Shown: piece after piece, positions 41,499 through 54,545 of the stretch
Numbering within the stretch: position 1 is the stretch's first letter
How the letters are laid out: every line of letters starts with the position of its first letter
NCBI RefSeq assembly: GCF_028532485.1
Contig: NZ_CP116942.1
Span: forward strand, 4,340,001-4,404,000
Direction: 5' to 3'
Origin: Iamia majanohamensis
GTDB taxonomy: Bacteria; Actinomycetota; Acidimicrobiia; Acidimicrobiales; Iamiaceae
Length of the DNA stretch: 64,000 nucleotides
Notes under the pieces: generated by a model
Told to the model about the DNA's origin: nothing
Database searches by the model: none
Seen by the model: only the letters and a program-made list of their open reading frames with translations
Translations under genes and position numbers: made by a program

Positions 41499-41693
41499 CG
41501 GTTCCCCCAACGCGGTCTCGGATCGCCGGCTGCGACCCCTCGACCCATCTTCGCGGGTGCGCCGACACCCGTCGCCATCCGTCGCGTGTGGCACCCGCCA
41601 CGCGGCGCGGTGGTCCGCTTCCCCCGCACCCCGCCCGTGCACCAGACTGTCGCGGTCCCCGGCGGGCCGGGACGCAGACCCAGGGGGGACCCG

Positions 41694-42503
41694 ATGACCC
41701 ATCGCACCACCGGCGCACCGCGTCGCCGCACCGCCGTGGCCGGCATCGTCGCCGTGCTGCTCGTGCTCGTCGCCGGCGCCTGCCAGCCGGCGCGGGAGGC
41801 CCGGAGGGACCGTCCGATCCTGCTCGTGCACGGCTGGAGCGCGAGCGGCGGCACCAGCTGCAGCGGCACCTTCGACCGCACCATCTCCCAGCTGCGCAGC
41901 GAGGGCTTCACCGGCCCCTTCGTCAAGGTCGGCTTCTACACCGGCGACACCGGCTGCTCGATGAGCCTGCGCTCGTGGGGCAGCTTCGAGAACGGCTCGT
42001 CGTGGAAGGACGTGGCCAAGGCCTTCTCGAGGTACGTCCACGCCACCTACACCTCCAAGGGCATCCCGGTCGACGTGATCGGCTACTCGATGGGCGGCAA
42101 CATCGCCCGCGGCGCGGTCTACGGCTCGTCCATCCGCGAGTCCGGCTTCTCCGCCCCGATCCAGGTGGAGGACGCGGTCACCCTGGGAACGCCCCACGCC
42201 GGCGCGGCGTGGTACTCCACCGCCTGCCTCTGGGGCCAGTGCTCGACCCTCAAGCCCGGGGCCTCCGACATCCAGTGGCTCAACCGCGACCTCGACCCGC
42301 AGGGCCCGGGGGGCACCGAGTGGACCGTGGTCGGCTCCGACGGCGACGCCGTCACCCCGCTGACCTCGGCGCTCTACATGGCCCTGCCCACCGCCCGGAA
42401 GGTCTCCTACCCCGGCGTCCCCCACACCGGGTCGGACAACTACCTGGGCCGCACCGACATCGTGCGCGCCGCCGGTCGCTCCCTGGCCGAGGTCGGCCGG
42501 TAG
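41694..42503 (+). CDS. Secreted lipase/esterase A of a tandem pair
   Basis: 269 residues. Signal peptide with Arg-rich n-region (APRRRTAVAG) and hydrophobic IVAVLLVLVAGAC; the Cys may be lipidated but the lipobox is weak. Mature part is an alpha/beta-hydrolase of the secreted triacylglycerol lipase type: LLVHGWSASGGTSC, nucleophile GYSMGGNIARG, VTLGTPHAGAAW, and a late His in GVPHTGSDNYLG. Four or more cysteines suggest disulfides. About three quarters identical to the next gene, so a recent duplication. A promoter hexamer CAGACT lies before a long leader with AGGGGGGAC. Confidence 0.88.
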   Translation: MTHRTTGAPRRRTAVAGIVAVLLVLVAGACQPAREARRDRPILLVHGWSASGGTSCSGTFDRTISQLRSEGFTGPFVKVGFYTGDTGCSMSLRSWGSFENGSSWKDVAKAFSRYVHATYTSKGIPVDVIGYSMGGNIARGAVYGSSIRESGFSAPIQVEDAVTLGTPHAGAAWYSTACLWGQCSTLKPGASDIQWLNRDLDPQGPGGTEWTVVGSDGDAVTPLTSALYMALPTARKVSYPGVPHTGSDNYLGRTDIVRAAGRSLAEVGR

Positions 42504-42627
42504 CGACCCGCCGGGCGCGGGGCGGGCGTCCACCGCGGGGGGTGGTCCCGGCACCGCGCCCCGAGGTGCGCCAGACTGCCGCGTGTCGCCGGTCACACCG
42601 ACCGGGACCTGTCCCCCGGAGGTCCCC

Positions 42628-43461
42628 ATGCGCCCACCCGCGCCGTCGTCCCCTGCCGCCCCCCGGCACCGGAGCCTGGTCCTCGTGGCCGTGCTCCTGC
42701 TGCTCGTCTCGCTCGTCGTGGGCGGCGCCACCGCCGCCCCCTCGGGGGCGGCCAGCGGGGTCCGCAACCGGCCCGTGCTGCTGGTGCACGGCTACAGCCT
42801 GAGCGACGGCACCGACTGCGGCGCCACCTTCGACCGCATGATCAGCCAGATGCGATCCGAGGGCTTCACCGGGCCGTTCGTCAAGGTCGGCTTCTACTCC
42901 GGCGACACGAACTGCAACGTGAACCTGCGGTCGTGGGGCAGCTTCGGTGACTCGTCGTCGTGGAAGGCGATCGCCAAGGCGTTCTCCAAGTACGTGTCGG
43001 CCACCTACACGGCCAAGGGCATCGCCGTCGACGTCGTCGGCTACTCGATGGGCGGCAACATCGCCCGCGGCGCGGTGTACGGGTCGTCGATCCGGGAGTC
43101 CGGGTTCTCGGCGCCCATCCGGGTGGAGGACGTCGTCACCCTGGGGACCCCGCACAAGGGCGCGGCCTGGTACACCTACGGCTGCCTGTGGGGCCAGTGC
43201 TCCACGCTGAAGCCCAGCGCCTCGGACATCGCCTGGCTCAACCGCAACGGCAACCCGCAGGGCGTGGGCGGCACCGACTTCACCGTCATCGGCTCGAACG
43301 GCGACTGGGTGGTCTCGGCCTCGTCGGCCACCTCCATGAGCGTGCCGTCGGCCCGCAAGGTGGTCTACGCCGACGTGCCCCACACCGGGTCCGACAACTA
43401 CATGGGCCGCACCGCGGTGGTGACCCGGGCCGGCAACGCCCTCGCCCTGGCCGGCACCTAG
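42628..43461 (+). CDS. Secreted lipase/esterase B of a tandem pair
   Basis: 277 residues from ATG 42628, with GGAGG 5 nt upstream. Signal peptide: AAPRHRSLVLVAVLLLLVSLVVG, cleaved probably after GGATAA; there is no lipobox Cys, so this copy is likely secreted free while copy A may be anchored. Same motifs: VHGYSLSDGTDC, GYSMGGNIARG, LGTPHKGAAW, VPHTGSDNYMG. The promoter area repeats CCAGACTG.CGCG seen before copy A, so promoter and gene were duplicated together. Confidence 0.9.
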   Translation: MRPPAPSSPAAPRHRSLVLVAVLLLLVSLVVGGATAAPSGAASGVRNRPVLLVHGYSLSDGTDCGATFDRMISQMRSEGFTGPFVKVGFYSGDTNCNVNLRSWGSFGDSSSWKAIAKAFSKYVSATYTAKGIAVDVVGYSMGGNIARGAVYGSSIRESGFSAPIRVEDVVTLGTPHKGAAWYTYGCLWGQCSTLKPSASDIAWLNRNGNPQGVGGTDFTVIGSNGDWVVSASSATSMSVPSARKVVYADVPHTGSDNYMGRTAVVTRAGNALALAGT

Positions 43462-45734: not shown

Positions 45735-46847
45735 TCAGAGGGTGCCGTCGGCCTGCAGGCGGCGGTAGAGGGCGACGTGGGCCCGGGCCGCGGCGGGCCA
45801 CGAGCACGACGCGGCCAGGGCCTCGCCGGCCCGACGACGGGCGGGGTCCGGGTCCGACAGGGCCTCGTCGAGGGCGGCGGCCAGCGAGGGCGGGTCGACG
45901 CCGACGCGGGCGGCCGCCCCGAACACCTCCCGCAGCACGGGCAGGTCGCGGGTGACCAGCGGGACGCCGGCGGCGAGGGCCTCCATGGCGGCCAGACCGA
46001 AGCCCTCCTTGGTCGACGGGAAGCAGAAGACGTCGGCGGCGGCGACGAGGCTGGGCAGGGCGTCGTGGGCGACGGGCCCGAGCACGGCCACGGGCACGTC
46101 GAGGTCGACCCGGCGGGCCTCGAAGGCGTGGCGGTACTCCCGGTGGTCGAAGAGGGTCTCACCCCCCGCCACCACCAGCTGGGCGGCCGGGTGGCGGTGG
46201 CGCAGGTGGGCGACCGCCTCGAGCAGGTCGACGGTGCCCTTGCGCGGCTCGATGCCGCCGACCGCCAGGACGAGCGGCGATCCCGGCAGCTGGTCGCGCC
46301 AGCGCCTCCGGGCCGCCGCGGCCGCGGCGTCGCCGGAGGCGGCCCGGGCGAAGCGGTCGGCGTCGACGCCGTTGGGGATGACCGTGGCCGCGAGGCCCCA
46401 CCCCTCGGCCAGCTCGGCCGCCACCGCGGCCGACACGCACACGTGGGCCCGGGGCTCGACCAGGGCCCGCTCGTGGCAGGCGGCCAGCTCGGGCGTGGTG
46501 AAGGCGTCGAGGTGGTGCACGGTGCGGATGCAGCCGGGCAGGGCGTTGGCCGAGATGCAGTCCTGGGCGTGGACGACGTCCGCCCCCTCGGGAGCGAAGG
46601 CCTCGGCCAGGGTGGCGATGGAGCGCAGGATCCGGGGCCCGACGCCCTCGCCCTCCCGCTCGGGGAAGGGCACCGCCCGCACCTCCACCCGGGGGTCCAC
46701 GGGACGGAAGAAGGCGGCGTCGCCGCCCCGGGCGAGGGTCCACACCGCCACCTCGTGGCCCTGGTCGACCAGGGCCTCGGCCAGGGAGAGGGTGTGGACC
46801 ACGCCGCCGCGAGGGCGGGTCGAGTAGGTCGCCAGCGCGATCCTCAC
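45735..46847 (-). CDS. GT4-type glycosyltransferase (MSMEG_0565-like), last gene of Nit-like operon
   Basis: 370 residues from GTG 46847, overlapping the upstream stop as GTGA. IALATYSTRPRGGVVHTLSLAEAL opens the GT-B fold; VVHAQDCISANAL, VIPNGVDADRF, VLAVGGIEPRKGTVDLLEAV and the donor-binding CFPSTKEGFGLAAMEALAAG (ExxGxxxxEA) are standard GT4. The N terminus and its place beside carbon-nitrogen hydrolases fit the MSMEG_0565 glycosyltransferase found in such clusters. It would glycosylate the unknown product of the operon (inference). Confidence 0.88.
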   Translation of the reverse strand: MRIALATYSTRPRGGVVHTLSLAEALVDQGHEVAVWTLARGGDAAFFRPVDPRVEVRAVPFPEREGEGVGPRILRSIATLAEAFAPEGADVVHAQDCISANALPGCIRTVHHLDAFTTPELAACHERALVEPRAHVCVSAAVAAELAEGWGLAATVIPNGVDADRFARAASGDAAAAAARRRWRDQLPGSPLVLAVGGIEPRKGTVDLLEAVAHLRHRHPAAQLVVAGGETLFDHREYRHAFEARRVDLDVPVAVLGPVAHDALPSLVAAADVFCFPSTKEGFGLAAMEALAAGVPLVTRDLPVLREVFGAAARVGVDPPSLAAALDEALSDPDPARRRAGEALAASCSWPAAARAHVALYRRLQADGTL

Positions 46848-47686
46848 GGGCCCGTCCCCTCCGCGTCGAGGTAGGTCTCGGGGCGGCGCTCGTCGAGGTG
46901 GTGGAGGGTCCGCCGGGCCCGCTCGACCTCCTCGGCCACGTCCAGGGTGGCCACGGCCATGCCGGCCTTGGCGCCCGTGCGGGCCAGGGTCTGGCCGCCC
47001 GGTCCCACCACCTTCGACCGCCCGAGGAAGCGGAGCTGGCCGTGCTGGCCGCACTGGTTGGCCGCGACCCACACCACCTGGTTCTCGGCCGCCCGGGCCC
47101 GGTCGTAGAGGTCGAACAGGCGGGCCTGGGGGTCGAGGTCGACCCGGGTGGCCCGCACCGAGGTGCTGGCCGGCCAGGCGCACAGGCAGGCGACGAGCAG
47201 GGCGCCCCGCCCGGCGAGGGTGCGGGCGGCCTCGGGGAAGGTCTTGTCGTGGTCGACGAGCAGGCCCAGGCGGCCCACCGGCGTGTCGCACGGGCTGAAG
47301 GCGTCGCCGGGGGCGTAGACCTCCCGGTCGGCGGGGGGCAGGTGCACCTTGCGGTGGACCCCGAGCACCCCGCTCCCGTCCAGGCAGACGGCGCTGTTGT
47401 AGCGGTGGCCGCCGTCGGCCTCGCAGACGCCGAGGCAGACGACCAGGTCCCGGGCCGCAGCCGCGACCCGGGCCAGCTCGGGGCCGTCGACGTCCAGGGC
47501 CGGAGGCGGGTCGACCGTGCCCTCCCCCACGGCGAAGCTGGCCAGGTAGCCGCCCAGGCTGGCGTCGGGGAGCACCACGAGGTCGGCCCCCCGCCGGCGG
47601 GCGTCGGCCACGATGGCCTCGACGCGCGCCAGCCCGGCGTCGACGTCGCGGGTGAAGGCGGCGGCCACCGCGGCGACGGTCAGCAC
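46844..47686 (-). CDS. Carbon-nitrogen hydrolase paralog lacking catalytic Cys and Glu
   Basis: 280 residues from GTG 47686, 13 bp after the flavoprotein stop. Clearly in the nitrilase superfamily and close to the protein at 49139-49987: VLPDASLGGYL, HRYNSAVCL, GVHRKVHLPP, LGLLVDHDKTFPEAA, VWVAANQCGQHG. The triad position for Glu is Asp41 and for the nucleophile Cys is Asp145; only Lys113 remains. All other conserved blocks are intact and the frame is open, so it is not a decaying pseudogene. It is probably non-hydrolytic: a regulatory or structural partner, possibly forming mixed oligomers with its active sister. Gene order with the glycosyltransferase is tight. Confidence 0.85.
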   Translation of the reverse strand: MLTVAAVAAAFTRDVDAGLARVEAIVADARRRGADLVVLPDASLGGYLASFAVGEGTVDPPPALDVDGPELARVAAAARDLVVCLGVCEADGGHRYNSAVCLDGSGVLGVHRKVHLPPADREVYAPGDAFSPCDTPVGRLGLLVDHDKTFPEAARTLAGRGALLVACLCAWPASTSVRATRVDLDPQARLFDLYDRARAAENQVVWVAANQCGQHGQLRFLGRSKVVGPGGQTLARTGAKAGMAVATLDVAEEVERARRTLHHLDERRPETYLDAEGTGP

Positions 47687-47699
47687 GGCAGCCCGACGC

Positions 47700-49139
47700 T
47701 CAGGCGGAGACGGAGCGGGCCCGGGCCACCAGGTCGTCGTGGTCGGGGGCGGCCCCCCGGGCCGGACGCCAGCCCGAGGCGGCCACCTCCTCGGCCGCGG
47801 CGACCACCGTCGGGTCGTCGAGCACCTCGGCCGGTCGGGCCAGGGTGCTCTGCAGCCGGGTGAAGGCCCGCCACGCGGTGGGGTCGCGCTGGGCCGCGAG
47901 GTAGGCCTGGCCGTTGGTGAGGCGGTGGCGCCAGAGGGGCGGCTCCGGGTCGGTGCCGGGCCGCCACCGGGCCAGCCGGTCGGCGTCCTGGCCCACCGAG
48001 TCCTCCACCCAGGCGGCCAGCTCGTCGGAGGTGAAGGCGGCCATGGCCTCGGTCTGGGCCCCGACGTCGCCGGGGTGGGCGTCGACCGCCTCGGCCAGGT
48101 GGAGGGCGGTGGCCAGGGCCAGGGTCGTGCCCCGGGTGTGGGCCGGGTTGGTGACCGACCGGGCGTCGCCGACCACGTGGAGGCCGAGGGGCTCGCCCCG
48201 GACCCAGGGGCGCAGCAGGTTCTGGAGGTTGGCCATGGTGGCCACCTCGCTCGTGGGCTCGGCCACGTCGGGGTCGCCCCAGGGCGCCACGTCCTCGATG
48301 GCGGCGACCGCTGCGTCGAAGGCGGCCGGGTCGCGCAGGGCGCGCATGTCGCGGTCCTCGGGGAGCACGCCGAAGGTGAGGGAGAAGGCGCCGTCGTCGG
48401 CGGGGAAGACGAGGCAGGAGTAGCGGTCGTAGCTGGCCCCGTGGGTGTAGCCCCGGTTGAGCGGCGTGGGCTCGGCGCCACGCAGCCGGTAGAAGCGGGT
48501 GAGGTAGGTGATGCCGCACGGCACCACCCGGGGGGTGGGGCCGTCGCCCTCGACCACCGGGTCGTCGGCGACCCCGGCCCAGCCCCGCACCGGCGAGCGC
48601 TTGCCGCCGGCGTCGACCACCACGTCGGCCGCGACGGGGCCGGCGTCGGTGAGCACCCCGGTGACCCGGCGCAGCTCGTCGGCCTCCACCTCCACCCCCT
48701 CCACGCCGACGCCGAGGCGGAGGTCCACGCCCGGGGCGCGCTCCGCAGCCCGGCGCAGGGCCCACTCGAAGGTGGAGCGGCGGGCGTTGAGCACCACCAG
48801 GTCGTCGTCGCCGGCGGCGGGGACGAGGGCGCCCAGGCCGTCCGGCGGTACCTGGGCCAGGCGGGCCTCGCGGACACCGGCCTCGGCCAGGGTAGCCAGG
48901 ACCTCGGGTGCCTCCTGGGCCAGGATCGCCCGGCTGCGGGCCAGGAAGGCGTGGGAGTGGGCGGCCTGGGGCGTGGCCCGACGTCGCCAGGTGCCGGCCT
49001 CCGCGGCGGTGGCGGGGGTGGGCGTGGCGTCCTTCTCCAGCACCGTGACCCGGTGGCCTCGGCGGGCGAGGAACAGGGCGGTCGAGAGGCCGGCGACGCT
49101 GCCCCCGACGACGGCGACGGGCACCGACGAGGGGGCCAT
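47700..49139 (-). CDS. FAD-dependent oxidoreductase/monooxygenase of the Nit-like operon
   Basis: 479 residues from ATG 49139 (TGATG overlap with the hydrolase stop). FAD dinucleotide motif VAVVGGSVAGLSTALFLARRG, then TPQAAHSHAFLARSRAIL, as in geranylgeranyl-reductase and aromatic-hydroxylase relatives; VVDAGGKRSPVRGW (DG motif) and GLHVVGDARSVTNPAHTRG (GD motif) complete the group A flavoprotein pattern. Nit1C clusters end in a flavoprotein monooxygenase (NitH); this could be its counterpart, though it does not look like the MSMEG_0569 type. Probably hydroxylates or desaturates the pathway intermediate. Confidence 0.83.
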   Translation of the reverse strand: MAPSSVPVAVVGGSVAGLSTALFLARRGHRVTVLEKDATPTPATAAEAGTWRRRATPQAAHSHAFLARSRAILAQEAPEVLATLAEAGVREARLAQVPPDGLGALVPAAGDDDLVVLNARRSTFEWALRRAAERAPGVDLRLGVGVEGVEVEADELRRVTGVLTDAGPVAADVVVDAGGKRSPVRGWAGVADDPVVEGDGPTPRVVPCGITYLTRFYRLRGAEPTPLNRGYTHGASYDRYSCLVFPADDGAFSLTFGVLPEDRDMRALRDPAAFDAAVAAIEDVAPWGDPDVAEPTSEVATMANLQNLLRPWVRGEPLGLHVVGDARSVTNPAHTRGTTLALATALHLAEAVDAHPGDVGAQTEAMAAFTSDELAAWVEDSVGQDADRLARWRPGTDPEPPLWRHRLTNGQAYLAAQRDPTAWRAFTRLQSTLARPAEVLDDPTVVAAAEEVAASGWRPARGAAPDHDDLVARARSVSA

Positions 49140-49987
49140 CAGACGGCCACCGCGGCGCCGTAGGTGTCGGGCCGACGGTCGCGGAGGTGGCCCATGTGGC
49201 GGCGGGTGCCGGCCAGGGCCTCGCCCACGTCGAGGGTGGCCACCGCCAGGCCGGGCTCGGTGCCGGTGGTGGCCAGGACCTCGCCGCCGGGGCCGACCAC
49301 CTTGGCCGAGGCCACGAACCGGAGGTCGCCGAAGGTGCCGGACTGGTTGGCCGACACCCACACCACCTGGTCGTGGAGGGCGCCGGCCCGGTCGAGGAGG
49401 TCGAAGCGCTGCGTCCAGCGGTCCTCGGCCAGGGTCGGGGCCGGGTCGGTGCGGCTGCAGGGCCAGGCCGAGAGGCAGGCGATCACCTCGGCCCCGTCGA
49501 GGGCCAGGGACCGGCCCGCCTCGGGGAAGGCCTTGTCGTAGCAGATGAGCATCCCGAGGCGACCGACCGGCGTGTCGAAGGCGGCGAAGCCCGAGCCGCA
49601 GGCGTAGCTGGCGTCCTCCCGCAGGGGCAGGTGGACCTTGCGGTGCACGCCCAGCACCTCGCCGGCGTGGACGCAGGCCGCGGTGTTGTAGCGGAGGTCC
49701 CCGTCGCCCTCGCAGAACCCCACGCAGACGACGAGGCCGTCGGCCATCTCGGCCACCCGGCGGACCACCGGGCCATCGACGTCGAGCACGGGCGGCAGGT
49801 CGGGGGGCGCGCCGGGGCGACCGCCGTTGAGGTCGTGGAGGTAGCCGCCGAGGGCGGCCTCGGGCAGCACGACGAGGTCGGCGCCGGCCAGCCGGGCTCG
49901 GTCCAGCAGCGCCTCGACGTCGGCGAGGGCGCGGTCGAGGTCGCGCCCGAAGGGGGCGGCCACCGCGGCCAGGGTGACGGGGCTCAT
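49139..49987 (-). CDS. Carbon-nitrogen hydrolase (nitrilase superfamily), active-site complete
   Basis: 282 residues from ATG 49987, overlapping the upstream stop as ATGA. Complete catalytic triad: Glu43 (LPEAALGGYL), Lys117 (HRKVHLP) and Cys149 in LICYDKAFPEAG. The Cys context is CYD, as in amidases and carbamoylases, not the CWE of Nit6803-type nitrilases, and the protein is shorter than those (about 340). So it probably hydrolyses an amide or related C-N bond; nitrile hydrolysis is possible but not supported by motif. Its sister gene two positions downstream has lost Cys and Glu. Confidence 0.9.
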   Translation of the reverse strand: MSPVTLAAVAAPFGRDLDRALADVEALLDRARLAGADLVVLPEAALGGYLHDLNGGRPGAPPDLPPVLDVDGPVVRRVAEMADGLVVCVGFCEGDGDLRYNTAACVHAGEVLGVHRKVHLPLREDASYACGSGFAAFDTPVGRLGMLICYDKAFPEAGRSLALDGAEVIACLSAWPCSRTDPAPTLAEDRWTQRFDLLDRAGALHDQVVWVSANQSGTFGDLRFVASAKVVGPGGEVLATTGTEPGLAVATLDVGEALAGTRRHMGHLRDRRPDTYGAAVAV

Positions 49988-51411
49988 CGGAGGGCCTCCT
50001 CGGTCGGGGGTGGGACGGCCGCGGCCGGGCCCAGGCCGGTGGCGGGCGCGGCCACGGCGAGGGTGCGCCGACCGTCGGGCCACACCAGGGACACGGCGCC
50101 GGCGGGAGACGGGGCCGTGAGGCGGCCCACCGGTGCGGTGGTGGCCCGGGGCGACGAGGGGGGCGTCGCCCCGGGCCGGTCCGCGGTGAGCAGGGCGAAG
50201 CCGGGGAAGCAGGTCAGCCAGTCGGCCATGGCCGCCCCCTCGGGCCGGGGCACGCCGGCCACGTCGAGCTCGGCGCCGGTGCCGCTGGCCTCGGCCAGCA
50301 TGGCGAGGGTGCCGACGAGGCCGGCCATGCTCACGTCCTTGGCCGCGGCCGGTCGGTGGCGGGCGAGGGTGCCCACCAGCTCCCGCAGCTCGCGGGGGCG
50401 TCGGTGGGTGGTGGAGTCCCATTGGCGGCCGGCGTGGCCGGGCCGCCACCCGCCGCCCAGGTCGGCGACGAGGTGGACCACGTCGCCGGGGCGGCCGCCG
50501 CCGCCGGGCACGGGGTCGTCGGTCGCCCCCAGGGCGGTCACCGCGAGGGCCCCGTGCTGGCCGACCTGGGTGTGGCCCCCGAGCACGGGGAGGCCGTAGG
50601 CCTCGGCCGCGGCCCGGATGCCCCGGAGCACGGCGGCCACGTGCTCCTCGCTGCGGCCGGCCACCGCGTCGAGGAGCCCGACCGGCACCGCGCCCATGGC
50701 GGCCAGGTCGTTGACGTTGACGAGCACGGCGCACCAGCCGGCCCACTCGGGGTCGCGCTCCACCATCGCCGGGGTGATGGCGTCGCACGCCGCGACCAGG
50801 GCCGCCCCGGGGACGGGGGCGGCGTCGTCGCCGACCCAGCCCGCACCGCCGGGGACGAGGTCGCCGACCAGGCGGCCGAGCGGTGCCTTGTCGGCCACGG
50901 CCCGGGCCAGGCGGTCGCCGGGGCCGAGCATCAGCACGTGGGGCGCGCCGGCCACCGTGGTCCGGTCGAGGGTGGTCCACCCGAGCCGGGCGAAGAACGC
51001 CTCCTTGTCGGCCTGGACGGTGGCGTCGAAGCGCACCGCGCCCCGGTCCTCGGCCAGGGCGGTGGCCGCCCGCACCAGGCGGGCCCCGACGCCGCGCTCC
51101 GCGCCGGGGTCGACGACCAGGCGGCTGCCCCGCCACCAGCCCAGCCCGCCGTGGCCGTCGTGGGGGTGCACCCGCACCCCGCCGAGCACGGCGCCGTCGT
51201 CGTGGCGGCGGGCCACCAGCACCGTGGTGGCCGGGTCGTCGTCGACCACGTCGAGGTCGTGGTCGGCGAAGAGGCCCTGGTCCGCGACGAACGCGGCCCG
51301 GCGCAGGCGGCGGTGGGCGGCCACGCCGGCGGCGTCGCCGGGCTCCACGAGCACGGGGTCGTGGAGCCGGGGACCGCCCATGGAGGTGAGGAAGGGCTCG
51401 ACGGCGGTCAC
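49984..51411 (-). CDS. GNAT acyltransferase fused to AIR-synthase-like domain (Sll0786/Sll0787 types)
   Basis: 475 residues from GTG 51411, one base after the radical SAM stop. Residues ~1-155: GNAT N-acyltransferase of the MSMEG_0567 N-terminal type (LRRAAFVADQGLF, GVRVHPHDGHGGLGWWRGSRLVVDPGAERGVGARLV shows the acetyl-CoA loop RGVGARLV). Residues ~165-475: AIR synthase/SelD-like ATP-binding domain (WVGDDAAPV, VNVNDLAAMGAVP, GGHTQVG, KDVSMAGLVGTLAML). In cyanobacterial and proteobacterial Nit1C clusters these are two genes; in mycobacteria-type clusters they are fused, as here. Reaction unknown; likely acylation plus ATP-dependent activation of one substrate. Confidence 0.88.
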   Translation of the reverse strand: MTAVEPFLTSMGGPRLHDPVLVEPGDAAGVAAHRRLRRAAFVADQGLFADHDLDVVDDDPATTVLVARRHDDGAVLGGVRVHPHDGHGGLGWWRGSRLVVDPGAERGVGARLVRAATALAEDRGAVRFDATVQADKEAFFARLGWTTLDRTTVAGAPHVLMLGPGDRLARAVADKAPLGRLVGDLVPGGAGWVGDDAAPVPGAALVAACDAITPAMVERDPEWAGWCAVLVNVNDLAAMGAVPVGLLDAVAGRSEEHVAAVLRGIRAAAEAYGLPVLGGHTQVGQHGALAVTALGATDDPVPGGGGRPGDVVHLVADLGGGWRPGHAGRQWDSTTHRRPRELRELVGTLARHRPAAAKDVSMAGLVGTLAMLAEASGTGAELDVAGVPRPEGAAMADWLTCFPGFALLTADRPGATPPSSPRATTAPVGRLTAPSPAGAVSLVWPDGRRTLAVAAPATGLGPAAAVPPPTEEALR

Positions 51412-51412
51412 C

Positions 51413-52495
51413 TCATCCCCCCGCGGTGGACAGCACGCTGCACGCGCCGCAGGCGGCGCAGCCCGCGCCCTGGTCGGCCCCCCGCATCCCGGCGGCGCGC
51501 AGCACGGCCGCGACCCGCTCGGTGACCTCGGCCAGCACCGCGGGGTCGGGGGCGGGGTGGTCGGCGGCCAGGGTGCCGACGAGGGGGCGGAAGGGGACGA
51601 CGAAGGGGTAGACGCCCCGGGCGACCAGCTCGGAGGCGCCCGCCACCAGCTCGTCGGGGTCCTCGCCCAGCCCGACGAGCAGGTAGGTGGAGACCTGGTT
51701 GCGCCCGAAGGTGCGGACCGCGGCGTCCCAGGCCCGCCAGTAGTCGTCGAGGGGCACGTGGGCCTTGCCCGGCATCCACCGACGGCGCACCTCGTCGTCG
51801 AGTGACTCGACGTGGATGCCGATGGAGGTGGCCCCCACCATGCTGAGCTCGCTCAGCACGGCCAGGTCGTCGGGCGGCTCGCACTGCACCTGCACGGGCA
51901 GGCCCGGCACCGCCCGGCGGATGGCGGCCACGCACCGGGCCAGGTAGCGGGCCCCCCGGTCGGGGGTGGCCGTGGTCCCGGTGGTGAGCACCACCTGGCG
52001 CACGCCGTCGAGGCGGACCGCGGCCTCGGCCACCTCGGCCAGCTGCGGCGGCGTCTTGACCCGCGTCGTGGCCCCGGCCCGCAGCGACGACTCGATGGCG
52101 CAGAAGCGGCACCGGTCGTCCTCGCCGTAGCGGATGCACGTCTGGATGACGGTGCTGGCCAGCACGTCGGTGCCGTGGAGGCGGGCCAGCTGCTCGTAGG
52201 GGACGCCGTCGGCGGTGGCCAGGTCGTAGAAGCGGGGCCGGTCCACCGCCTCCACCTCGAGGCCGACGTCGTCGCCGTCGCGGAGGAGCCGGCCGTCGAC
52301 GACCTCGAAGGGGCTCGACGGGTCGAGGGGCAGGGCCGCCCCCCGCCCGTCGAGGCGCACGTGGCCGTCGTCGCTGGGCCCCGCACCCGCCTGGCGCCGG
52401 ACCGGCGGCGCCACGCGCACGCCCGCCACCGCGACCTCGGCCCGGGCGCGGGTCTGGGTGGTCGGGGCCGGTGGGGGGACGGCCACGTCGGTCAC
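51413..52495 (-). CDS. Radical SAM protein, MSMEG_0568/Sll0785 type
   Basis: 360 residues from GTG 52495. The cluster-binding cysteines are C-x8-C-x2-C (CIRYGEDDRCRFC), a wider spacing than the standard CxxxCxxC, followed by AIESSL, as in this Nit1C-specific family. VVLTTGTTATPDRG and IGIHVESLDDEVRRRW belong to the SAM barrel. A second group of cysteines ends the protein (GCAACGACS), possibly an auxiliary cluster or sulfur donor. It is the most diagnostic gene of the operon. Radical chemistry on the unknown substrate is expected. Confidence 0.9.
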   Translation of the reverse strand: MTDVAVPPPAPTTQTRARAEVAVAGVRVAPPVRRQAGAGPSDDGHVRLDGRGAALPLDPSSPFEVVDGRLLRDGDDVGLEVEAVDRPRFYDLATADGVPYEQLARLHGTDVLASTVIQTCIRYGEDDRCRFCAIESSLRAGATTRVKTPPQLAEVAEAAVRLDGVRQVVLTTGTTATPDRGARYLARCVAAIRRAVPGLPVQVQCEPPDDLAVLSELSMVGATSIGIHVESLDDEVRRRWMPGKAHVPLDDYWRAWDAAVRTFGRNQVSTYLLVGLGEDPDELVAGASELVARGVYPFVVPFRPLVGTLAADHPAPDPAVLAEVTERVAAVLRAAGMRGADQGAGCAACGACSVLSTAGG

Positions 52496-52526
52496 CGGAC
52501 CGGTCCTGCGCTGTCCACCGGTGCCC

Positions 52527-53036
52527 TCACAGGTTGTAGGTGGAGTTGATGATGGCGCCCTTGCGGGCGTAGTGGATGACGCAGTCCTGCACGTCGAGCG
52601 GGTGGGCCGGGATGACCCCCTCGATCAGGTCCTCCTCGCGGAGGCCGTGCAGCGACAGCCCGAAGCGGCAGCAGTAGACCTTGCCGCCCTCGGAGATGAA
52701 GGTGGCGATCTGGTCGTTCAGGTTCTGCTCGCCGGGGAAGGCCGAGTCCCCGGTGGTCGGGAAGCCCCGGGTGGCCATGCAGTTCATGGAGCCGGGCCCG
52801 TAGAAGTAGAGGACCGACTCGAAGCCCTTCCGCAGGGCCCGGGTGGCCTGGAGGATGGCCACGAAGCTGACCGACGACTCGTGGGCGATGCCGTGGACGA
52901 GGGTCAGGTACGACTCGCCGTCCTCGGCCTGGTAGTCGGGGAACAGCTTGGTGCTGCCGTACAGGTTGGATCCCTTGGGCAGGGACGGGTGCGGGATCTC
53001 GGCCAGGCTCTGGGCCTCGAGGTCGGTCAGCTCCAC
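52527..53036 (-). CDS. MSMEG_0572/Sll0783-family protein (NitB-like)
   Basis: 169 residues from GTG 53036 with AAGGA upstream. Strongly conserved small protein of Nit1C clusters: IPHPSLPKGSNLYGSTKLFPDY, the GESYLTLVHGIAHESSVSF core, ESVLYFYGPGSMNCMATRGFP, YCCRFGLSLHGLREEDLIEG and the C-terminal CVIHYARKGAIINSTYNL. Homologs are induced by nitrogen starvation (Sll0783 in Synechocystis). The chemistry is unknown; the double-Cys and DsrE-like features (ALRKGFESVLYFYGPG) suggest a sulfur-relay or ligand-binding trimer fold (inference). Confidence 0.9.
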   Translation of the reverse strand: MELTDLEAQSLAEIPHPSLPKGSNLYGSTKLFPDYQAEDGESYLTLVHGIAHESSVSFVAILQATRALRKGFESVLYFYGPGSMNCMATRGFPTTGDSAFPGEQNLNDQIATFISEGGKVYCCRFGLSLHGLREEDLIEGVIPAHPLDVQDCVIHYARKGAIINSTYNL

Positions 53037-53101
53037 GGTGGGGTCCTTCGCTTTCTGGTGGGTGGTGGGTCGGTGTCGGGGGTGGTCGGGTCGGGTCGGG
53101 G

Positions 53102-53923
53102 TCAGGTGCCGTAGAGGGCGGCGAAGTTGTCGCGGAACACGTGGCGGGAGAGCTCGTCGCCCCGCGCCGCGGCGGTCATGCGGGCCAGCTCGCCCTCGCG
53201 GTCGCTCCAGGGCTCGTCGGAGGCGAACAGGACGCGGTCCCAGCCGCAGCCCCGGGCCTCGACCTCCTCGAGCAGCCAGCGGGGGGCGAAGCCGATGGCC
53301 CAGGAGGCGTCGGTGTAGACCCGCTTGCCGGCGTCGACCCAGTCGAAAAAGCGGCCGCCGATGAGCTTGATGTGGCCCGACATGCCGCCGCCCAGGTGGA
53401 CGAGGTGGATGGCCACGTCGTCGCCGAAGCGGTCGACGAGGGTGGCGACCTGGTCGATGTCGGAGGCGCCACCGGGCGAGGTGTGCACGTGGACCACGAG
53501 GTCGTGCTCGCGGGCCACGGCGAAGATGCGCTCCAGGCCGGGCTGGCAGTCGGGGTCGGTGGGCGACCCGCCGAGCAGGAAGCTGAGCTTGAGGGCCCGC
53601 ACCCCGGGCTCGCCGACGAGGGTGAGGGCCCGGGCGGTGCGCTCCTCGTCGCCCGGGCGGGGCGACACCCAGAGGGCGGCCCGCACCCGGTCGTCGCGGG
53701 CGGCGGCCTCGATGCAGAGCTCGTTGAACCCGAAGGCCACGTCGGGGTCGGGCACGCCGTAGTTGGGGATCACCAGGGCCCGCTCGGTGCCCTCGGCGTC
53801 GAGGTCGGCCAGCAGGGCGTCGACGGTGCCGCGGGATCGGGTGTCGGGTGCGACCGCCGGGCCTCCGTAGAACGGGAACGCGGGGAGGGTGCCGAGGTGG
53901 CGGTGAGCGTCCCAGACGACCAT
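53102..53923 (-). CDS. Amidohydrolase (family 2), first gene of Nit-like operon
   Basis: 273 residues from ATG 53923. TIM-barrel metal-dependent amidohydrolase of the PF04909 kind: VWDAHRHLG (HxH near the N terminus), VVHVHTSPGG (His), HLVHLGGG (His) and FASDEPWSDRE (Asp). It lies 65 bp upstream of the Sll0783-like gene in the same direction, so probably the first gene of the operon; such enzymes hydrolyse C-N bonds or decarboxylate. Linked to the Nit module by position only. Confidence 0.85.
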   Translation of the reverse strand: MVVWDAHRHLGTLPAFPFYGGPAVAPDTRSRGTVDALLADLDAEGTERALVIPNYGVPDPDVAFGFNELCIEAAARDDRVRAALWVSPRPGDEERTARALTLVGEPGVRALKLSFLLGGSPTDPDCQPGLERIFAVAREHDLVVHVHTSPGGASDIDQVATLVDRFGDDVAIHLVHLGGGMSGHIKLIGGRFFDWVDAGKRVYTDASWAIGFAPRWLLEEVEARGCGWDRVLFASDEPWSDREGELARMTAAARGDELSRHVFRDNFAALYGT

Positions 53924-54545
53924 GACCCCAGTGGACCGGCGGGGTGTTTCGCCGGGACCACGGGAGGACGAACGGCCGGTCACGAGCGCGTTGGCCCGCC
54001 CTTGCCCCCACCTTGGCCCCGTCTGTCCTCGCTTGTGGGCTCCCGCGCCTCGCGACATCGCCTGCCACGACCTGTCACCCTGGGCCCGTGGCCACCCGAC
54101 CCGTCCCTCCCGCCGCAGCCGGACGGCGTGGCTCGTCGCCCTCGCCCTGCTGGCCGCTGGGCTGCTCGTCTGCTCCTCCGACGAGGGCCCCGACGACGTC
54201 GCGACCGCACCGAGCGCCTCTGCGCCGGCGAGCACCGAGGCCACCACCAGCACCACTGCGGCGACGGGCGGAGGGCTCGACGCCTTCTGCGCCGCTGCGC
54301 CCCGCCCCGACGAGGAGGTGCCGGAGTCCTACGTCGGGTCGGCGGAGCAGGTCGCCGACCTGCGCGCCCTCGCCGACATCGCCCCCGACGCCATCGCCGA
54401 CGACGTCACGGTGATCGCCGACCACTTCGAGACCGAGGTCGACCCGGCCGACCCCGACTCGCAGCTGACCGAGACGTTCCCCGACGACGTCACCGCGAGC
54501 ATCGACGCCGTCACCACCTACGCGGCCGAGACCTGCGACGGCTAG
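53922..54545 (+). CDS. Secreted or membrane-anchored protein, start uncertain
   Basis: The frame holds a good protein from about 54110 onwards: basic RSRTAWLVALALLAAGLLVC, then Ser/Thr/Ala linker and an acidic domain (GGLDAFCAAAPRPDEEVP ... TYAAETCDG) with two cysteines. The N terminus is unclear: ATG 53922 overlaps the amidohydrolase start, TTG 54033 is possible, and a leaderless-looking GTG 54088 is out of frame. No lipobox (V before Cys). Function unknown. The region between 53922 and ~54100 is probably not coding. Confidence 0.5.
   Translation: MTPVDRRGVSPGPREDERPVTSALARPCPHLGPVCPRLWAPAPRDIACHDLSPWARGHPTRPSRRSRTAWLVALALLAAGLLVCSSDEGPDDVATAPSASAPASTEATTSTTAATGGGLDAFCAAAPRPDEEVPESYVGSAEQVADLRALADIAPDAIADDVTVIADHFETEVDPADPDSQLTETFPDDVTASIDAVTTYAAETCDG

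Follow-up and report, generated by a model that had tools for sequence, protein, structure and literature searches.

The window examined here, a stretch of 64,000 nucleotides from Iamia majanohamensis (assembly GCF_028532485.1, contig NZ_CP116942.1, positions 4,340,001 to 4,404,000), encodes two paralogous proteins of the carbon-nitrogen (CN) hydrolase fold. One paralog, referred to here as EKC, is intact, while the other, DKD, has Asp where EKC has its nucleophilic Cys. Across the sequences that we compared, DKD looks like a conserved, Cys-less sister line in actinobacteria with a job of its own rather than a broken gene. The comparisons show that an old duplication in actinobacteria gave rise to two lines, one with Glu-Lys-Glu-Cys and one with Asp for Cys. 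In the DKD line, they show replacement of the general base Glu (mostly by Asp), retention of Lys113 and, outside the window, of Glu120, a consistently rewritten pocket, and strong purifying selection. On balance, we lean toward the view that DKD is a neofunctionalized, nucleophile-less member of the nitrilase superfamily with a non-hydrolytic role, which would act on a pathway intermediate through a ligand pocket of its own. The two genes and the codons that distinguish DKD are as follows; residues are numbered as in DKD of the window, and Glu43 and Cys149 of EKC are counted from its start Met.

46844 to 47686, minus strand: DKD, CN-hydrolase fold, with D41-K113-D120-D145 replacing E-K-E-C (frame, PF00795, alignment, AlphaFold2 model)
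47564 to 47566, minus strand: Asp41 codon, general base Glu in EKC (counted in frame; paralog alignment)
47327 to 47329, minus strand: Asp120 codon, second Glu in relatives (counted in frame)
47252 to 47254, minus strand: Asp145 codon, nucleophile Cys in EKC (counted in frame; paralog alignment; nucleophile elbow in the model)
49139 to 49987, minus strand: EKC, E-K-E-C CN hydrolase, ATG start at 49987 (PF00795, paralog alignment)

The DKD frame opens with GTG and encodes 280 amino acids with no internal stop. BLASTP aligned the paralogs with 152 of 273 residues identical (56%) and 2 gaps, placing Asp41 opposite Glu43 and Asp145 opposite Cys149, with Lys113 retained. An earlier note, made from the DNA letters, had proposed exactly these substitutions in a clean frame with the blocks SLGGYL, HRKVHLPP, DKTFPEAA, and VWVAANQ intact, and the alignment and frame bore it out; all four blocks are present in DKD. 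PF00795 matched DKD over its full length (E value of 1.6e-37) and also matched EKC (E value of 7.5e-33), with four further matches elsewhere in the source genome, which is a single 4.58-Mb contig that is 99.44% complete. By this profile and by the fold of its model, DKD belongs to the nitrilase superfamily as a fold family; it falls outside the superfamily understood as Cys-dependent hydrolases with a Glu-Lys-Cys triad, since the window protein has Asp-Lys-Asp. Hydrolysis through a Cys thioester would be impossible for DKD, and the protein appears to fit the description of a pseudoenzyme whose catalytic residues are lost and whose loss is conserved. Neither paralog reached the cutoff of the N-carbamoylputrescine amidase family TIGR03381 (410.25 bits; 96 bits for DKD and 103 for EKC) or of the Nit6803 nitrilase family TIGR04048 (502.6 bits; 43 and 35 bits, respectively). 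The window copy also deviates at the second superfamily glutamate (by alignment, Glu132 of the Medicago truncatula N-carbamoylputrescine amidohydrolase [CPA]), which is Asp120 in this protein alone among 113 orthologs, and at Tyr146, which is replaced by His here and is His in 2 of the 113.

To determine conservation of the Cys-less state, we built the argument on a sample gathered with EKC as the query (P0002), since a scan of genome contigs (best 80 of 463 relatives) used two seeds, one of which contains Asp145; all 85 odd sequences that it returned carry this seed, so that scan cannot test Asp145. The EKC query, searched against 394 genomes of another class at an E value of 1e-45, yielded 48 genomes; one locus read from each of them (L047 to L049 and L177 to L221) makes up what we call the bait-free sample. 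DKD was present at 32 of these loci and EKC at 47: both occurred at 31, EKC alone at 16, and DKD alone at 1. Asp145, Lys113, and Glu120 were each found in 32/32 bait-free DKD proteins, while position 41 was Asp in 24, Gly in 7, and Gln in 1. The EKC proteins carried Cys, Lys, and Glu120 in 47/47 and Glu41 in 46/46, one row being too short. A wider set of 113 odd and 122 intact sequences, drawn from overlapping collections in which some genomes are counted twice, agreed: Asp145 was present in 113/113 DKD proteins, and the base Glu was replaced by Asp, Gly, or Gln in 113/113. The conservation of D-K-D among homologs, on which the earlier note had made its proposal depend, thus holds for Asp145 and Lys113, with a non-Glu residue at position 41, and a local mutation or assembly error was rejected for the family on the basis of Asp145 in all bait-free orthologs.

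The pair is rare in the window's own class, where 8 of 395 genomes matched query P0001 at an E value of 1e-25. Only two matched closely (at least 56% identity, with two matches each), namely, the window genome and G223, which has the window's gene order, keeps Asp41 and Asp145, and has Glu120; the remaining six showed only 34 to 40% identity. Given close matches to the pair in 2/395 genomes of its own class versus matches to EKC at an E value of 1e-45 in 48/394 genomes of another class, the window cluster (45735 to 54256) was possibly acquired from other actinobacteria. Four Rhodococcus plasmids carry the DKD protein, in two places on each. On plasmid pN9T4-1 of R. qingshengii, both paralogs are annotated as "carbon-nitrogen hydrolase family protein"; the first has the motifs LPE, RKVHQPLGE, and ICYDK, and the second has LPD, RKVHQPAGE, and LIDYDK. 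The accessions of this pair are WP_125053367.1 and WP_125053363.1.

In a 115-row quick-mode tree, DKD formed one branch (48 rows; Shimodaira-Hasegawa-like approximate likelihood ratio test [SH-aLRT] value of 93) and EKC another (61 rows; SH-aLRT value of 75). Loci L210 and L216, which have EKC only, fall within groups of two-paralog loci, so that at least two losses of the DKD gene are probable; for a 14-row EKC-only group (f136), loss and never having had the gene are indistinguishable. Gly or Gln at position 41 is scattered over the tree (L212, the f136 group, and L193), and the window DKD sits on a long branch (1.09). We estimated ratios of nonsynonymous to synonymous substitution rates (dN/dS, or omega) from 107 two-paralog loci; both genes were more than 80% identical at the DNA level in 343 pairs, of which 45 had usable divergence. 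The ratio was lower in DKD than in EKC in 42/45 pairs and, when only the 16 disjoint pairs were counted, in 13 (medians of 0.019 versus 0.041), and mean column entropy at 31 matched bait-free loci was 0.86 bits for DKD and 0.97 bits for EKC. DKD is at least as constrained as EKC, and the dN/dS estimates bear out the earlier note in that its gene is under purifying selection.

AlphaFold2 models of both proteins were confident, with mean predicted local distance difference test scores of 94.3 for DKD and 94.0 for EKC. In the models, Asp145 of DKD and Cys of EKC are predicted to sit at the nucleophile elbow in the same way, each starting the helix that follows the corresponding strand. The solved structures nearest to the DKD model are the Pyrococcus amidase 6ypa (Z score of 35.6, 1.6 Å over 252 residues), 1j31 (Z score of 35.4), and 3ivz, with M. 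truncatula CPA (5h8i) also near (Z score of 34.2). DKD resembles known superfamily members in having the whole fold, the triad Lys, and several pocket-lining residues (Tyr47, Pro117) but differs from them in its Cys-to-Asp and base Glu replacements and in its rewritten pocket mouth.

Since PMC4812014 names residues that line the pocket of M. truncatula CPA, we carried 13 of these positions over to DKD and EKC by alignment and compared them with all columns in a permutation test on the 31 matched loci; CPA Tyr130, Asp126 (insertion), Pro128 (backbone), Cys276, and Trp277 (dimer mate) were excluded. Mean entropy at the 13 positions was 0.26 bits in DKD versus 0.86 bits over all columns (P = 0.0015) and 0.44 versus 0.97 bits in EKC (P = 0.009). 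With the catalytic four removed, the remaining nine positions gave 0.27 bits in DKD (P = 0.008) and 0.63 bits in EKC (P = 0.12), such that the excess conservation persisted in DKD but was no longer clear in EKC. The paralogs differ consistently in what they keep: position 149 is Thr in 112/113 DKD proteins versus Ala in 114/122 EKC proteins, position 175 is Val, Ile, or Leu in 109/113 versus Arg in 114/122, position 178 is Arg in 106/113 versus Ala or Pro in 85/122, and position 181 is Arg in 101/113 versus Asp or Asn in 104/122. Two more positions, picked because they differ and left outside the permutation test, are 187 (Gln in 113/113 DKD versus Trp in 117/122 EKC) and 190 (Leu in 113/113 versus Arg in 122/122). 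A CPA-like specificity was rejected, as neither paralog keeps the Glu187 with which CPA meets the tail amine; at the corresponding position 178, most EKC proteins have Ala, Pro, Thr, or Ser, and DKD has the Arg noted above. An early idea, that DKD had merely acquired an anionic pocket, was dropped given Arg178 and Arg181.

These observations suggest a protein that would fold like an amidase and accommodate a small molecule from the same nitrogen starvation pathway; Asp145, Lys113, and Glu120 would lie at the bottom of its pocket, and Arg178 and Arg181 would line the mouth. Such a protein would act in a ligand-dependent, non-hydrolytic way: it may bind an intermediate or pass it on, or it may carry out a reaction without a cysteine nucleophile. 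We favor such a role over that of a pure scaffold because a scaffold would not need a conserved, respecialized pocket lining. A bolder version, which we consider doubtful, is that the nitrilase fold has given rise to an enzyme whose Cys-free active site is new (Asp145-Lys113-Glu120, with Arg178/Arg181 at the mouth); this enzyme would catalyze an undescribed step of the GlnR-induced nitrogen starvation pathway of actinobacteria and be misannotated as an amidase.

The paralogs lie in a cluster that is transcribed on the minus strand in the order amidohydrolase, MSMEG_0572, radical S-adenosylmethionine (SAM) protein, GNAT-AIRS, EKC, FADx, DKD, glycosyltransferase. The neighboring features are as follows.

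45735 to 46847, minus strand: glycosyltransferase, MSMEG_0565 family (TIGR04047, 454 bits, cutoff 259.85, scanned from 46841)
47700 to 49139, minus strand: FAD-dependent oxidoreductase "FADx," between the paralogs (weak FAD-family matches)
49984 to 51411, minus strand: fusion of GNAT and AIR-synthase-like (AIRS) parts, MSMEG_0567 family (TIGR04050 and TIGR04045 above cutoff)
51413 to 52495, minus strand: radical SAM protein, MSMEG_0568 family (TIGR04043, 502 bits, cutoff 303.7)
52527 to 53114, minus strand: MSMEG_0572/Sll0783 family nitrogen starvation protein, match from residue 39 of the stretch (TIGR04044, 259 bits, cutoff 109.85)
53102 to 54256, minus strand: open frame with Amidohydro_2 protein, match over residues 116 to 383 (PF04909)

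The MSMEG_0572, MSMEG_0568, MSMEG_0567, and MSMEG_0565 families all scored above their NCBIfam cutoffs, which identifies the cluster as being of the Nit1C/gpr type. Genes overlap by a few bases at the AIRS-EKC, EKC-FADx, and DKD-glycosyltransferase junctions, the glycosyltransferase having a probable GTG start at 46847 that overlaps the TGA stop of DKD; FADx ends 13 bases ahead of DKD. Because the PF04909 match covers only residues 116 to 383, the true start of the Amidohydro_2 gene is probably near 53923; such a gene lies at the same end in many clusters. The MSMEG_0570 and MSMEG_0569 genes that lie between the paralogs in R. qingshengii are absent from this slot in the window, which FADx alone fills; the rest of the genome was not searched for MSMEG_0570. 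In many relatives, the slot is taken by a flavoprotein (MSMEG_0569 family by annotation) that FADx does not resemble, and one gene has apparently replaced two. Relatives of FADx (37 to 46% identical) fill the slot in the EKC-only loci L197, L199 to L203, L206 to L209, L211, L213, L214, and L220, and closer ones (52 to 53%) fill it in L065 and L185. Elsewhere in the window (41691 to 43461, plus strand), the proteins encoded by two adjoining open frames closely resemble each other, with long stretches in common; they look like lipases or esterases, and a tandem duplication is likely.

As an example of a non-hydrolytic role, the earlier note had named that of a scaffold or allosteric partner within a mixed oligomer; DKD would then be a non-catalytic subunit that assembles with EKC and activates, shapes, or regulates it. 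We rank this explanation second and consider it rather unlikely. It accords with the presence of EKC in 31 of the 32 bait-free genomes that have DKD, and the six loci of the genome contig scan with DKD and no EKC in the locus point the same way, since all five of the genomes searched hold EKC elsewhere (that of L093 was not among them). The distances of DKD and EKC are also correlated across loci (0.83 for 107 loci; 0.66 for the 30 loci with six cluster genes), and M. truncatula CPA is described as an octamer in which the other subunit of the dimer helps to line the mouth of the pocket (PMC4812014). At the same 30 loci, however, each paralog correlated with the glycosyltransferase at 0.66 too, and the partial correlation between DKD and EKC was 0.06, compared to 0.36 between EKC and AIRS and 0.32 between DKD and AIRS. 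Partial correlations of DKD and EKC with the radical SAM protein and AIRS ranged from 0.27 to 0.36, and no special partner of DKD stands out.

Gene content and gene order also speak against this explanation. EKC occurs without DKD at the 16 EKC-only loci, and a repeat search of 6 of these 16 genomes, in which all candidates were scored, found no second close copy. Conversely, genome G776 (20 contigs, 98% complete) has DKD alone (L221:9393-10202, plus strand), and this protein keeps Asp41, Lys113, Glu120, Asp145, Arg178, Arg181, Gln187, and Leu190. No close EKC was found in G776 (the next match is 38% identical, with an E value of 1.6e-18), the radical SAM family TIGR04043 had no match there, and the 19 kb examined, in which the gene lies, contain no Nit1C-type cluster; five genomes of the family of G776 were available, too few for finding further lone DKD copies. 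Neither DKD nor EKC needs the other everywhere. DKD genes lie in clusters of the Nit1C/gpr type, and the glycosyltransferase gene comes next after DKD on the same strand at 103/113 loci; of the other 10, nine have no following cluster gene in the available sequence and one has AIRS next. At L047, L048, L215, and L219, DKD is flanked by the AIRS and glycosyltransferase genes while EKC adjoins the MSMEG_0572 family gene, so that the paralogs are kilobases apart and DKD is still beside the glycosyltransferase. Loci found via the glycosyltransferase family (L050 to L064 and L066) had no DKD or EKC match at an E value of 1e-4; other nitrilases were not looked for. Taken together with the conserved odd pocket, the lone-gene genomes and the partial correlation argue, if indirectly, against an obligate DKD-EKC oligomer. 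The earlier proposal is thus partly supported, namely, by the conserved loss of Cys and Glu, the purifying selection, and the company of EKC in nearly all bait-free DKD genomes, but the mixed oligomer does not serve as the leading idea.

We consider it still less probable that DKD is catalytically active, as a hydrolase or transferase, through an altered mechanism in which Asp145 would act as the nucleophile or as an acid/base alongside Lys113 and Glu120. The invariance of these three residues in bait-free orthologs and the predicted placement of Asp145 at the elbow of a confident model would suit such a mechanism, but the general base Glu is gone from every ortholog, and its replacement tolerates Gly and Gln. 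We know of no nitrilase superfamily member with an Asp nucleophile, and an E142D mutant of an amidase is reportedly inactive. The window protein carries this same Glu-to-Asp change at position 120, which is the mutation in the PDB amidase entry 4lf0 (E142D). Finally, decay to a pseudogene or an assembly error, which could draw on the extra deviations of the window copy (Asp120 and His146) and its long branch, is highly improbable and is refuted for the family by the clean frame in a one-contig genome, by Asp145 in all 113 orthologs including that on the R. qingshengii plasmid, and by an omega of about 0.02 among close relatives.

Several observations weigh against our preferred reading of DKD as a non-hydrolytic protein with its own ligand pocket. 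That DKD uses this pocket is suggested by conservation alone. The CPA template is only ~25% identical, and the alignment over residues 174 to 190 is weak and may slip in the loop. Position 41 varies among Asp, Gly, and Gln, such that the former catalytic site is only partly maintained, and the window DKD, which lacks Glu120 and Tyr146 and has a long branch, may be drifting. In G776, the lone DKD has Val149 and Arg174, which are rare in the family. The near-constant co-occurrence with EKC also fits a mixed oligomer, and the partial correlation of DKD with the glycosyltransferase (0.11) reveals no special coevolution. Lastly, the three disjoint pairs that are wholly bait-free gave omega values for DKD versus EKC of 0.006 versus 0.011, 0.039 versus 0.027, and 0.065 versus 0.062; since this contrast is inconsistent, we limit our claim to DKD being at least as constrained as EKC.

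In Mycobacterium smegmatis, the gpr operon (MSMEG_0565 to MSMEG_0572) is described as induced upon nitrogen starvation in a GlnR-dependent manner, and deletion of the whole operon renders starved cells sensitive to peroxide (PMC6039565). A GlnR peak adjoining MSMEG0572 has been reported (PMC3662644), as have values under nitrogen limitation of 2.96 for MSMEG_0566 and 4.06 for MSMEG_0571 (PMC4617892); a table of ratios in PMC4222082 lists 8.94 for msmeg_0566 and 48.04 for msmeg_0571. MSMEG_0566 is annotated as "aliphatic amidase" and treated as a putative amidase (PMC6039565, PMC4222082, PMC4617892). At L047, L048, L215, and L219, DKD shares the position of MSMEG_0566 between the MSMEG_0567 and MSMEG_0565 family genes, and EKC shares that of MSMEG_0571 beside the MSMEG_0572 gene. 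Judged by gene order, MSMEG_0566 would be a DKD protein. The UGA end of MSMEG_0571 has been proposed to be read as selenocysteine (PMC6039565). Among the EKC genes, 9/122 end in TAG, and of the 113 that end in TGA, 27 have an in-frame extension of at least 300 codons; this does not look like conserved UGA read-through.

The Nit1C cluster of cyanobacteria and proteobacteria (Podar et al. 2005, PMC1199592) is described as having one nitrilase, of subfamily 1. It resembles the window cluster in combining a nitrilase superfamily enzyme with radical SAM, GNAT, and AIRS genes and a conserved small ORF1, and a glycosyltransferase is noted in two betaproteobacteria. The window cluster differs in having two paralogs far under the TIGR04048 cutoff, one of which lacks the Cys. 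A catalytically dead paralog that likewise persists beside an active copy is the AdoMet decarboxylase prozyme of Trypanosoma brucei (PMC6221367), but the prozyme is reported to activate its partner as a heterodimer, whereas DKD stands alone in one genome. Laboratory-made Cys mutants of the nitrilase fold are in the PDB (e.g., 6ypa, 5h8k, and 4izs). While inactive paralogs are thus a known kind, the literature searched (mostly without subscription journals) yielded no paper on a natural Cys-less CN hydrolase in a Nit1C/gpr cluster, where DKD would represent a natural, long-conserved Cys-to-Asp subfamily.

If gene order is a guide, the gene taken for an amidase in studies of nitrogen starvation in M. 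smegmatis, MSMEG_0566, probably encodes no normal amidase. The chemistry of the actinobacterial Nit1C/gpr cluster is left open in the available parts of the literature, and this pair, closely related but opposite in catalytic state and with pockets that have changed reciprocally, offers a direct handle on it; the substrate of EKC and the ligand of DKD may be related molecules. The pair also illustrates cleanly how a paralog that lacks the catalytic Cys can be constrained no less than its active sister. Some natural genomes hold just one of the two, and the lone DKD of G776 is a natural test of DKD acting by itself.

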